A program made the position numbers and the translations under genes. Below the pieces are notes generated by a model that saw only the letters and a list, made by a program, of their open reading frames with translations, was not told where the DNA came from and did not search any database. A stretch of 64,000 nt of DNA from Sulfurovaceae bacterium (GTDB lineage: Bacteria > Campylobacterota > Campylobacteria > Campylobacterales > Sulfurovaceae): contig JAQTLV010000007.1 of the NCBI GenBank assembly GCA_028714675.1, positions 1-64,000 of the forward strand. The letters run 5' to 3'. Below, piece after piece: positions 1,759-48,343 of this stretch (position 1 is the stretch's first letter; each line of letters begins with the position of its first letter).

Positions 1759-2055
1759 AATTTTTCCTTTTTTTGTAATGTATAATTTTGATTGCAACCA
1801 ATAGCTAATATAAATTCTTGGTAGAGTAAATTAAAAAAATGGAATTTCGAAAGCTATAAGCCAAAGCATTTTCTTATCTAATAAATATTATCGATTAGAC
1901 TATGATAGTAAATTTAATATTAATTTACTATTAATTATTAAATAATAGTAAATATTTTTATAATATTTTTAATTTTTAAAATATTACAATTTGCCATAAA
2001 AATTATAATTAACAAAAATATAATTTATAATCTCGTAAATATAAAAAGAGAATTT
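1759..2055. other. AT-rich divergent control region between the subtilase and the HTH gene
   Basis: About 300 bp of very AT-rich DNA with no open frame of note. It holds the start region of the subtilase (minus strand) and, at its right end, an operator-like site (1982-1998) and a TATAAT box at 2019-2024 for the HTH gene at 2056. A run of TAATTTACTATTAATTATTA-type AT repeats between 1915 and 1960 forms imperfect palindromes, but no function can be assigned. Confidence 0.6.
1982..1998 (+). promoter_or_regulatory. Operator-like site upstream of the HTH-only gene (third, diverged copy)
   Basis: The sequence TATTACAATTTGCCATA matches 15 of 17 positions of the core TATGACAATTTGACATA found upstream of the S24 repressor gene and recA. 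It is centred at 1990, about 41 bp upstream of the start expected from the TATAAT box at 2019-2024. The flanking A/T arms are less conserved than in the other two sites. Binding is inferred, not shown. Confidence 0.55.
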
Positions 2056-2274
2056 ATGGAATTTGATAAAATTATAAAAAGACTTAGAATCGTATTGTCA
2101 GATAATAATTATGCACAAAAAATATATGACAAAGATATTGCATCCGCACTTAATCTTGAAGCACAATATTTTGCTGTTATGAAAAAAAGAAAAAAGATCC
2201 CTTTTAAAGAAATTGCAATATTTTGTAATAAAAATAATATAAGCATCAATTGGATTTTATTTGAATCTAATTGA
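2056..2274 (+). CDS. Small helix-turn-helix protein, HTH-only paralogue of the S24 repressor
   Basis: A 72-residue protein made only of a DNA-binding domain. Over about 48 residues it is roughly half identical to the N-terminus of the S24-type repressor at 27334-27984: both have K-I-[YF]-DKD, FA-x-MKKR, P-[FY]-KE, FC and IS-x-NW in the same order and spacing. It lacks any peptidase or dimerisation domain. No strong Shine-Dalgarno is seen (AAGAGAA before the ATG). A TATAAT at 2019-2024 and an operator-like site at 1982-1998 precede it. It converges on the RTX protease gene with a 14-bp gap. It may compete with the full-length repressor for the same operators or act like a Cro or antirepressor; that is inference. 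It could also be a truncated relic, although the reading frame is intact. Confidence 0.75.
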   Translation: MEFDKIIKRLRIVLSDNNYAQKIYDKDIASALNLEAQYFAVMKKRKKIPFKEIAIFCNKNNISINWILFESN

Positions 2275-26941: not shown

Positions 26942-27337
26942 ATGAAAGTAGCTATACCAGTAATAGATGATAGCTTAAGAATTGCAAAAAATGCAGGACA
27001 CACACCATTTTTTGCTGTATTTAATATAGGTGGAGGAATGTTTAAGACTATCACCCTTGAAGAACTTAGAGCAAACCCAAAAATGGCAGGGCATGAAGTA
27101 GATGAAGAAGAACATAGTGGAAAACATGTGTGTGAACACGATGCCGATGATATGGAACATATCAAAGCACATGATTTAATGTCTGAAGCAATAAAGGATT
27201 GCGAATATCTAGTCATAAAATCAGCATGTAAAAATACTGCAAATTCTATGAAAGAGTTTGGCATAAAGATGAAAAAATATACTGGCGAAAAAACAAATGC
27301 CAAAGAAGCACTTGGGGAACTTTCAAAAGAGTTCTAA
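26942..27337 (+). CDS. NifX/NifB-type iron-molybdenum cofactor-binding domain protein with His/Cys-rich insert
   Basis: A 131-residue single-domain protein of the dinitrogenase Fe-Mo cofactor-binding family (MKVAIPVIDDSLRIAKNAGHTPFFAVFNI...; late motif DCEYLVIKSACKNTANSMKEFGIK). Residues about 50-80 form an acidic, His-rich insert with one Cys (HEVDEEEHSGKHVCEH, then HIKAHD) that looks metal-binding. No nif genes are nearby, so the role is probably handling of Fe-S or other metal clusters rather than nitrogenase. A Fur-box-like site overlaps the leader. The stop overlaps that of the convergent repressor gene by 4 bp. Confidence 0.8.
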   Translation: MKVAIPVIDDSLRIAKNAGHTPFFAVFNIGGGMFKTITLEELRANPKMAGHEVDEEEHSGKHVCEHDADDMEHIKAHDLMSEAIKDCEYLVIKSACKNTANSMKEFGIKMKKYTGEKTNAKEALGELSKEF

Positions 27338-27984
27338 AGGCTCTCTATATTCCCAACCACTTTACCAACAATACTTACCTCATCAGGAGTGAGAACTTCT
27401 GGCGAATATGCTTTGTTGTCACTTATTAACTCTATCATACCATCTGCTCTTTGACGAATTCTTTTTATAAAAAGTCCTGCTGTTGTAGAAGCTATAAAAA
27501 TACCATCTTTGTTTATATTTGTCTGTTCACGGTCAATAAAAACAATCGAGCCATCGCTGAGTGTTGGCTCCATAGATTCACCATCGACATGAATAGCTTC
27601 TAATTTGGTATTTCCAAATCCAACCATATTTTGTACAATTGTTTTATCAACATTTAAAACTTCATAATCTTCACCAAATACTTCTGCACCACCTCCAGCA
27701 CTAGCTCTAATATCTGCAAAATATCTGATTTGGAAAAATTTATCAGTTTCAGCTTTTAGCATGTCAACTGCTTGATCAAAAAAGAGCCAATTTGCACTTA
27801 TTTTCTTAGTGGCACAAAATTCTAATAATTCTTTATATGGCACAGAGTTTCTCTTTTTCATGGTTGCAAAAGTAGTTTGAGGTATTCCAAGTATATTCGC
27901 CACATCTTTGTCGAAAATCTTATTTTCTTTATTGGTAGATATTACATCTTTTATCTTTTCAATAACTTCTGATAAATCAATCAT
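27334..27984 (-). CDS. S24-type (LexA/CI-like) transcriptional repressor
   Basis: A 216-residue regulator. The ATG at 27984 is chosen for the AAAGGAGT just upstream. Residues 1-72 form a CI-type helix-turn-helix domain (FDKDVANILGIPQTTFATMKKRNSVPYKELLEFC). Residues 88-216 are an S24 peptidase fold with a candidate scissile Ala96-Gly97 in RASAGGGAEVF, nucleophile Ser137 in GESMEPTL and general base Lys174 in GLFIKR. The 37-residue Ser-Lys spacing equals that of LexA (Ser119-Lys156). RecA-stimulated self-cleavage is therefore expected from family knowledge. The gene is followed by no phage genes. An operator-like palindrome at 28033-28061 overlaps its -35 region and recurs upstream of recA. Confidence 0.9.
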   Translation of the reverse strand: MIDLSEVIEKIKDVISTNKENKIFDKDVANILGIPQTTFATMKKRNSVPYKELLEFCATKKISANWLFFDQAVDMLKAETDKFFQIRYFADIRASAGGGAEVFGEDYEVLNVDKTIVQNMVGFGNTKLEAIHVDGESMEPTLSDGSIVFIDREQTNINKDGIFIASTTAGLFIKRIRQRADGMIELISDNKAYSPEVLTPDEVSIVGKVVGNIESL

Positions 27985-28032: not shown

Positions 28033-28061
28033 AAAAAATATGACAATTTGAAATATTTTTT
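28033..28061 (-). promoter_or_regulatory. Operator-like palindrome upstream of the S24 repressor gene
   Basis: A 29-bp near-palindrome with A-tract and T-tract arms around the core TATGACAATTTGAAATA. It is identical at 28 of 29 positions to the reverse strand of 47774-47802 upstream of recA. Its centre is about 40 bp upstream of the repressor's expected transcription start and it also lies upstream of the divergent 35-codon ORF. It lies between divergent genes, so it is not a terminator. Autoregulation by the repressor is the simplest interpretation. Confidence 0.75.
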
Positions 28062-28117
28062 AATTATTTTTAAATTTTTATATATTATTTGAAATATATT
28101 TACAAAAAGGATTTAAA

Positions 28118-28225
28118 ATGATTTATACTAAAAGCAGCTCAATATTTCAAGAAGCAATAAAAGCAGGATGTATTAGTGTATCAGATTTTGCAAATTATGT
28201 TAAAAACATTAAAAAATCTGCCTAA
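28118..28225 (+). CDS. 35-residue ORF divergent from the S24 repressor
   Basis: An ORF reading MIYTKSSSIFQEAIKAGC and ending YVKNIKKSA, preceded by AAAAGG at a suitable distance. It is transcribed away from the repressor gene across the shared operator region, and its stop overlaps the convergent moeA stop by 4 bp. The composition suggests one or two short helices. No family is recognised. It may be a small product controlled by the repressor, in the position that cro occupies relative to cI in phages, but it is too short to be called Cro-like. Confidence 0.4.
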   Translation: MIYTKSSSIFQEAIKAGCISVSDFANYVKNIKKSA

Positions 28226-46668: not shown

Positions 46669-47709
46669 TTAATCTTCAATGCCCATTTCATTTTCACTAA
46701 TTGAAAGCATATCACTCACGCCAAGGGCTTCTCTGATTTTCTCTTCTATCTCGCGTCTAAGTTCATTATTTTCTTTTAGAGTTTGTTTTGCACCCTCTTT
46801 TCCTTGTCCCAATTTATGCTCTTTATAACTAAACCATGCACCTGCTTTATCTATGATATCTAGTTTTACACCATAGTCAACCAATTCACCTTCACTGCTT
46901 ATGCCTTCTCCAAACATGATATCAAACTCTGCTTGACGAAATGGAGGAGCAACTTTATTTTTAACAACTTTTGCTTTTACGCGATTGCCTATTTGTGCTT
47001 CCCCTTGTTTTAATGTGGCTATTCTTCTGACATCTATTCTAACTGATGCATAAAACTTTAGGGCATTTCCACCTGTTGTGGTTTCAGGCGAACCATATCC
47101 CATTGTTCCTATTTTCATTCTGATTTGATTTATAAATATTACAGTTGTATTTGTTTTATGTAATACTGCTGTTAATTTTCTCAATGCTTGGCTCATAAGT
47201 CTCGCCTGAAGCCCCATATGGCTATCACCCATATCCCCTTCTATCTCACTTTTTGGGGTAAGTGCAGCTACCGAGTCAACAACAATCAAACCAACGGCAC
47301 CGCTTCTGGCTAAAGTTTCAAGAATATCTAGTGCTTGTTCGCCAAAATCAGGTTGACTAACGAGGAGATTTTCCACATCAACGCCTAGATTTTTAGCATA
47401 CTGTACATCCAGTGCATGCTCGGCATCAATAAATGCACATATGTCTCCATTTTTTTGAGCCGATGCGATTACTTGTAGAGACAATGTGGTTTTTCCTGAT
47501 GATTCTGGTCCGTATATCTCTATAACTCTACCTTGTGGAACACCACCAATACCTAGTGCTATATCAAGCCCCAAAGATCCTGTACTAATCGATGCTAATG
47601 GTTCAATTTCTTTATCACCAAGTCGCATAAGCGTACCTTTGCCAAATGTTTTATCAATCTGTTTGATAGCCATCTCAAGTGCTTTTTCTTTTTGCGCATC
47701 CATTGCCAT
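46669..47709 (-). CDS. recA: Recombinase RecA
   Basis: A 346-residue recombinase that forms ssDNA filaments and in many bacteria triggers self-cleavage of S24 repressors. Walker [10 protein letters not shown] is at 67-75 and Walker B is LIVVDSV. The ATG at 47709 ([14 protein letters not shown]) has AAAGG six bases upstream; an ATG two codons earlier at 47715 is also possible. The C-terminus is acidic (SENEMGIED). The upstream region contains the 29-bp operator-like palindrome shared with the S24 repressor gene. eno and ftsB follow in the same direction. Confidence 0.97.
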
Positions 47710-47773
47710 ACTCATCCTTTATCCTTTATATTGAAGTTATAATACCATTTTAAACTATTTTGGACAAGTGTTT

Positions 47774-47802
47774 AAAAAATATGTCAAATTGTCATATTTT
47801 TT
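47774..47802 (-). promoter_or_regulatory. Operator-like palindrome upstream of recA
   Basis: A 29-bp palindrome: arms AAAAAATATG and CATATTTTTT are perfectly complementary and flank a centre TCAAATTGT, so 13 of 14 base pairs are symmetric. On the minus strand its core reads TATGACAATTTGACATA, and the 29 bp differ at one position from 28033-28061. Candidate recA -10 boxes are TAAAAT (47747-47752) and TATTAT (47739-47744), placing the centre about 48 or 56 bp upstream of the start. It also lies upstream of the divergent dsrE-like gene. Confidence 0.75.
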
Positions 47803-47908: not shown

Positions 47909-48343
47909 ATGAACCTCAAAATATTTTATACAGGATTAATAACTTTTGCTTTGGCTACATGTAGTCTTCATGCAAATCCAAATCAAGATGCACCAAAAAA
48001 GATTGTTGTTACTATAACTTCATCTTCAATTAATCAATCAGGATTTGGTTTGGCGGTTGCTAATGCTATGCAGGATGCTGGAGTAAATAGTACGGTATTT
48101 GTAGCAGGTGATGCGGTAAAATATGCTTTAAACAATAGTGTTAATCCAAAATTTGCAGGCTTTACGCCAAAAGATTTAATACAAGCTCTTATAAAAAAGG
48201 GTGGTAAAGTGATGATTTGCGAAGGATTTGTAAAACTTGGCAATATCAAAAAAACAGATATGGTACAAGGTGTGCAAGTAGCAACTCCAAGTGATTTGGC
48301 GGGTGCTCTATATGCTCCAAATTCAAAAGCTATGACATTTTAA
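47909..48343 (+). CDS. Periplasmic DsrE-family protein
   Basis: A 144-residue protein with a cleavable-looking signal peptide (MNLKIFYTGLITFALATCSLHA). The mature part has the DsrE-like alpha/beta fold (KIVVTITSSSINQSGFGLAVANAMQDAG, VFVAGDAVKYAL, LIKKGGKVMICEGFVKLGNI) with a single Cys in MICEG at the position often used by DsrE/TusD relatives for sulfur handling. A role with sulfur species in the periplasm is inferred. It is followed 43 bp later by the CRP-family gene and likely co-expressed from the promoter carrying the CRP-type site. Confidence 0.8.
   Translation: MNLKIFYTGLITFALATCSLHANPNQDAPKKIVVTITSSSINQSGFGLAVANAMQDAGVNSTVFVAGDAVKYALNNSVNPKFAGFTPKDLIQALIKKGGKVMICEGFVKLGNIKKTDMVQGVQVATPSDLAGALYAPNSKAMTF

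Follow-up and report, generated by a model that had tools for sequence, protein, structure and literature searches.

A captured phage-type S24 repressor as the probable SOS regulator of a Sulfurovum-like bacterium and its family

Introduction

In the Bacteroidetes, a phylum described as being without LexA, a global SOS-type regulon is governed by non-canonical LexA-like repressors, which join an S24 domain with an Ala-Gly bond and a Ser/Lys dyad to a phage-CI-type HTH, use CTAA-N5-TTAG among their boxes and have been reported as exclusive to that phylum (PMC8565304). FddR of Francisella, in which LexA is also absent, is an autoregulated phage-type S24 repressor accompanied by a divergent gene of unknown function; it binds GTG-N11-CAC, and its network is very small and leaves recA uninduced (PMC13148647). 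HdiR of the Streptococcaceae and UmuDAb of the Moraxellaceae are further non-LexA S24 regulators answering to DNA damage and are described as controlling mainly error-prone polymerases (PMC8565304). The epsilonproteobacteria have been stated to have no LexA (PMC2390758), Helicobacter pylori has been suggested to lack an SOS response (PMC2912397), and these organisms have been stated to lack LexA or an SOS response (PMC5665897). A search of the literature on SOS and LexA in Sulfurovum, Sulfurospirillum and the Campylobacterota, with subscription papers mostly outside its range, returned no report of the system described here.

The system centres on an S24 repressor gene at 27334..27984 (minus strand) of the window, the whole 64,000-nucleotide stretch of DNA that was analysed, from a Sulfurovum-like bacterium. 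With a probability of roughly 0.87, its product acts as master SOS repressor in this bacterium and its family, a captured repressor of the phage CI type in LexA's role; we infer from sequence comparison that it binds DNA, that RecA triggers its cleavage and that damage induces its regulon. Compared by description, the protein has the same domains, scissile bond and dyad as the Bacteroidetes repressors, and its predicted regulon is likewise global. The Sulfurovaceae system differs from theirs in its box, TATGWCA-N3-TGWCATA, in a regulon weighted towards recombination and transformation genes, and in two attachments, a divergent ORF of 35-42 aa and a paralogue with a DNA-binding domain only. With FddR the system has in common the phage-type S24 repressor, putative autoregulation, the divergent gene and the absence of LexA, but its box is a different one and stands at recA and many repair genes.

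If this reading is correct, an SOS response exists in a bacterial group described as being without the LexA regulator. The absence of SOS would then not be a property of the whole group, with sister lineages having an SOS response under a different repressor, and the system would add another independent example in which SOS was rebuilt around a repressor of phage type. Families with a repressor-polymerase pair only would represent a possible intermediate stage. The defined box makes the system testable at once.

The S24 repressor and its self-cleavage apparatus

The repressor gene encodes 216 aa from an ATG at 27984, and its layout was assigned from Pfam, the orthologue alignment and a fold search. 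The protein consists of a phage-CI-type HTH (residues 7-69), a hinge with Ala96-Gly97, and an S24 domain (residues 94-210) with Ser137 and Lys174. In Pfam, both Peptidase_S24 (PF00717, E 8.6e-20) and Phage_CI_repr (PF07022, E 3.1e-6) score above their curated cut-offs, and the latter is found in place of a LexA DNA-binding domain, for which there is no Pfam match in the protein. The DNA-binding domain is of the phage CI type, not the LexA winged helix. The candidate cleavage bond Ala96-Gly97 sits within ADIRASAGGGAE, while Ser137 lies in DGESMEP and Lys174 in LFIKRIR (numbering from the Met at 27984).

The original prediction, made from the DNA letters alone, had placed these residues in the S24 ORF and had likened the Ser-Lys spacing to that of LexA. 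Both points are borne out: the residues lie where they were claimed, and Ser137 and Lys174 are 37 residues apart. The LexA dyad is Ser119-Lys156. Across 89 distinct repressor orthologues, A94, S95, A96, G97, G98, G99, S137 and K174 are invariant, which points to selection and not to chance. The Ala-Gly bond with the Ser/Lys dyad is a hallmark of LexA, and the union of an S24 domain bearing these elements with a phage-type HTH is that of a non-LexA S24 SOS repressor.

As a member of LexA proper, the protein was rejected, with 32.6 bits against the TIGR00498 cut-off of 110.95. Searches of 59 relatives with the same model returned no LexA above the curated cut-off, and the control genomes were found. 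The repressor shares with E. coli-type LexA the self-cleavage apparatus, the 37-residue spacing, putative autoregulation, and recA and ruvA as predicted regulon members; it differs in that LexA has a winged-helix domain and another operator.

The AlphaFold model of the repressor is of moderate confidence (mean pLDDT 82.9, pTM 0.56). The top folds matched by this predicted model are a lambda-186 hybrid repressor, Thermotoga LexA, the phage 186 repressor, RecA-bound LexA and the lambda repressor.

The operator and its sites in the window

The repressor promoter carries the pseudo-palindrome TATGTCAAATTGTCATA. In relatives, the strikingly conserved AAAATATGTCAAATTGTCATATTTT upstream of the repressor gene corresponds to the pseudo-palindrome TATGWCA-N3-TGWCATA, a box of 17 bp, or 27 bp with its A/T flanks. 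With at most two mismatches it is present in 75 of 88 repressor control regions (perfect in 51); its most frequent position in these promoters is 18 bp ahead of the -10 box. Inspection by eye showed one or two additional copies in the repressor regions of many relatives, one of which lies towards the divergent small gene.

In the window, the exact consensus has two matches, against 0 of 100 shuffles; for the relaxed palindrome by itself the count is not significant, its three matches being reached by 7 of 100 shuffles. The operator TATTTCAAATTGTCATA (28039..28055, minus strand) occupies the repressor's own promoter region, between the repressor and the divergent small ORF. A degenerate second copy, TATATTTCAAATAATATA (28089..28106, minus strand), was recognized by eye at a position where many relatives have a better copy, and was not detected in the window scan at up to four mismatches. 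A further operator, TATGTCAAATTGTCATA (47780..47796, plus strand), lies upstream of recA and is conserved at recA in relatives, and TATGGCAAATTGTAATA (1982..1998, minus strand) lies upstream of the paralogue. The palindrome at the repressor's own gene is a putative autoregulatory operator, as would be expected of a non-LexA S24 SOS repressor.

Predicted regulon

Box sites were collected genome-wide by pattern searches together with the stretches around the matches. At no more than one mismatch from ATGTCAAATTGTMATA, the 1.75 Mb genome holds nine occurrences, compared with two for the reversed-pattern control. The nine sites precede recA, ruvA (on two contigs), comM/YifB, yraN (UPF0102), radA, a Y1-type transposase gene, the repressor gene and the 72-aa paralogue. 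The distance from the box to the gene that it precedes is 51-65 bp for recA, ruvA, comM, yraN and radA, and 40 bp for the Y1 transposase gene. The two-mismatch scan is near control level (13 versus 7), so the weak sites are not to be counted; the six weak loci in this genome were set aside as chance. The ruvA/murJ region, present on two contigs and identical around the operator (C2:304610 and C9:12799), reflects either assembly duplication or contamination.

In the window, recA (46669..47715, minus strand; 348 aa, PF00154 E 2.5e-138, TIGR02012) is a predicted regulon member, and the divergent 144-aa gene next to it (47909..48343, plus strand), which shares the operator region, is a possible one. 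In relatives, the recurring genes downstream of the box, counted as protein rows, are recA (13), comM (9), Y1 transposases (8), radA (7), C5-cytosine methylases and ORF6N proteins (5 each), ruvA, recQ and radC-like genes (4 each) and comEA-like genes (3), with single cases before recG, dprA and rmuC. In several relatives, genus mates included, the box or a close variant of it stands 57-80 bp upstream of Y-family polymerase genes. No Y-family polymerase was detected in the present genome; whereas HdiR and UmuDAb act mainly on error-prone polymerases, the predicted regulon here is one of recA, ruvA and radA. The collected box targets do not include uvrA, recN and some other classical SOS genes. 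The operator at recA and at DNA-repair genes is a further feature of a non-LexA S24 SOS repressor, and it is very probable that recA and a full suite of repair genes are under the repressor's control.

The comM, dprA, radA and comEA-like targets serve natural transformation as well as repair, and IrvR of Streptococcus mutans is reported to be LexA-like yet to deviate from the RecA paradigm (PMC7101444). A regulon of recombination and transformation genes could be run by the repressor with another trigger in place of RecA-stimulated self-cleavage at DNA damage, either a cue such as redox state or competence, or inactivation by another protease. We consider this unlikely: the scissile bond and the dyad do not vary among the 89 orthologues, recA itself is a box target, and in genus mates so are Y-family polymerase genes.

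Y1/RAYT-type transposase genes repeatedly have the operator 1-40 bp upstream (six loci), which suggests damage-induced transposition. In four relatives, a conserved protein of about 113 aa is preceded by the operator at about 40 bp; the one copy checked has no Pfam match, and the protein is possibly a new damage-response protein.

Accessory genes

The divergent ORF beside the repressor, MIYTKSSSIFQEAIKAGCISVSDFANYVKNIKKSA (28118..28225, plus strand), encodes 35 aa and is likely co-regulated. Over 420 non-independent pairs, its substitutions at codon positions 1, 2 and 3 number 2913, 1296 and 6646, and codons with a single difference comprise 4425 synonymous and 1341 non-synonymous cases, likewise non-independent. 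By this substitution pattern, the ORF is protein-coding. Its sole Pfam match is a sub-threshold LCCL, and neither it nor the 72-aa paralogue has an NCBIfam match. As a guess, its product is a damage-induced microprotein acting as a checkpoint or modulating repair. Different ORFs of 27-34 aa occupy the same divergent position in other families (three loci).

The 72-aa paralogue of the repressor's DNA-binding domain (2056..2274, plus strand) has its operator upstream at -74, and similar genes with a box upstream occur in several relatives (three loci). Its recognition region, QYFAVMKKRKKIP, is similar to that of the repressor, QTTFATMKKRNSVP. Lacking an S24 domain, the paralogue would escape cleavage; were it to bind the same box, it could restore repression or act as a competitor.

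Proposed mechanism

In the undamaged cell, a repressor dimer on the 17-bp box would block transcription. The genes held in this state here would be recA, ruvA, radA, comM, yraN, the Y1-type transposase gene, the repressor gene, the divergent small ORF and the paralogue; in relatives, recQ, recG, dprA, rmuC, radC-like and Y-family polymerase genes would be blocked as well. Upon damage, RecA filaments on single-stranded DNA are proposed to induce the Ser137/Lys174 dyad to cut the repressor's own Ala96-Gly97 bond. The dimer would then fall apart and the regulon genes would be turned on, and autoregulation of the repressor would reset the circuit.

Genomic setting of the repressor gene

Among 72 related loci, moeA adjoins the repressor orthologue in 69, and moaE and moaD are each near it in 62. 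The NifX-like neighbour is not conserved, being common to only 8 of the 72. The best phage relatives of the repressor, from Campylobacter and Helicobacter, are at most 36% identical to it. These CI-type repressors (e.g. of phage CAM-P21) have the same domain order, but are encoded in phage genomes and form a separate long branch in the repressor tree, in which the Sulfurovaceae form one well-supported clade. The original prediction of a chromosomal regulator, as opposed to a prophage repressor, agrees with the moeA linkage, the low phage identity and the separate phage branch. The gene encodes a phage-type repressor that has long had its place in the chromosomes of Sulfurovum and related bacteria.

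A prophage remnant was ruled out by the linkage to moeA, moaE and moaD, by the identity of 36% or less to phage proteins and by the separate branch. Two other S24 genes of the same genome do sit in prophage-like regions (L425, 7099-7743; L426, 7968-8669), one surrounded by Mu-like transposition genes and the other by phage replication-type genes, according to inspection of the ORFs by eye.

A relic repressor of a prophage or plasmid, acting on a local target alone, would share the CI-type HTH and the match of the S24 protein to the PHROG transcriptional repressor family phrog_4 (E 8.2e-34), and related plasmid copies do face DNA polymerase IV genes. This reading of the gene is exceedingly improbable in view of the moeA linkage, the distant phage relatives and the operators that stand, at a great distance from the repressor gene, before recA and repair genes.

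Co-occurrence of box and repressor across families

The survey covered 298 genomes of the class, each at least 90% complete, with a strong repressor orthologue defined by E of at most 1e-60. The 97 genomes with a strong repressor hold 172 boxes (reversed-pattern control, 10), and the 201 genomes without one hold 18 (control, 14). The association gives a Fisher P of 1.4e-17 and a Mann-Whitney P of 2e-19, values that ignore kinship; related genomes are not independent, and the Fisher value therefore overstates significance. Outside the Sulfurovaceae, 80 repressor-positive genomes hold 67 boxes (control, 5). In a one-mismatch search, the exact-form box is absent from three orthologue-bearing genomes (G005, G028 and G174); relaxed versions are seen at recA in G005 and G028.

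In families f16, f8, f20 and f6, matching boxes occur at the repressor and recA promoters in most tested genomes, and the box drifts jointly at both, e.g. to TATTTCA-N3-TGAAATA in f20 and f6. Family f20 is taken as the Sulfurospirillaceae, since the coordinates of an S24 gene on contig 2 of G054 coincide with those on a Sulfurospirillum diekertiae plasmid. The joint drift and the co-occurrence over the 298 genomes also bear on which protein binds the box. Another factor might be the binder, for instance the 72-aa paralogue, with its similar recognition region and a box at its own gene, so that the S24 gene would belong merely to that factor's regulon. Given this covariation with the S24 gene, and given that most orthologues have a box in the promoter of the S24 gene itself, such an arrangement is very unlikely. 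The best explanation is that the captured S24 repressor serves as SOS regulator in the Sulfurovaceae and in several sister families, as a counterpart of the non-canonical LexA in the Bacteroidetes.

In f15, f18 and f4, and in the f20 genome G108, recA has no box, so the large regulon does not extend to all families. In these three families and G108, the repressor faces an apparent divergent Y-family polymerase start in most sequences (ten loci, mostly by eye), and the f15 and f18 repressor promoters have a different, TTAACAA-N-TTGTTAA-like palindrome (by eye). The repressor-polymerase pair is possibly an ancestral local module, and the families look like a series from this local pair to a global regulon, the direction of change being a proposal. 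A strong repressor orthologue is missing from most genomes of f10 and f13, which, judging from their size and number, are probably the Campylobacter and Helicobacter families.

In a wider scenario, several free-living Campylobacterota families would have a true RecA-governed SOS response under the captured phage-type repressor. It would have grown from the local repressor/Y-family-polymerase module, still present in f15, f18 and f4, to a global regulon with recA, and in the majority of genomes from two large families it would either have been lost or never have become global. Its accessories would be a non-cleavable DNA-binding-domain paralogue able to damp the response and a damage-induced microprotein. 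We regard this scenario as evenly poised between holding and failing. The plasmid-borne repressor copies that face DNA polymerase IV genes are found in Aliarcobacter cibarius and Sulfurimonas aquatica.
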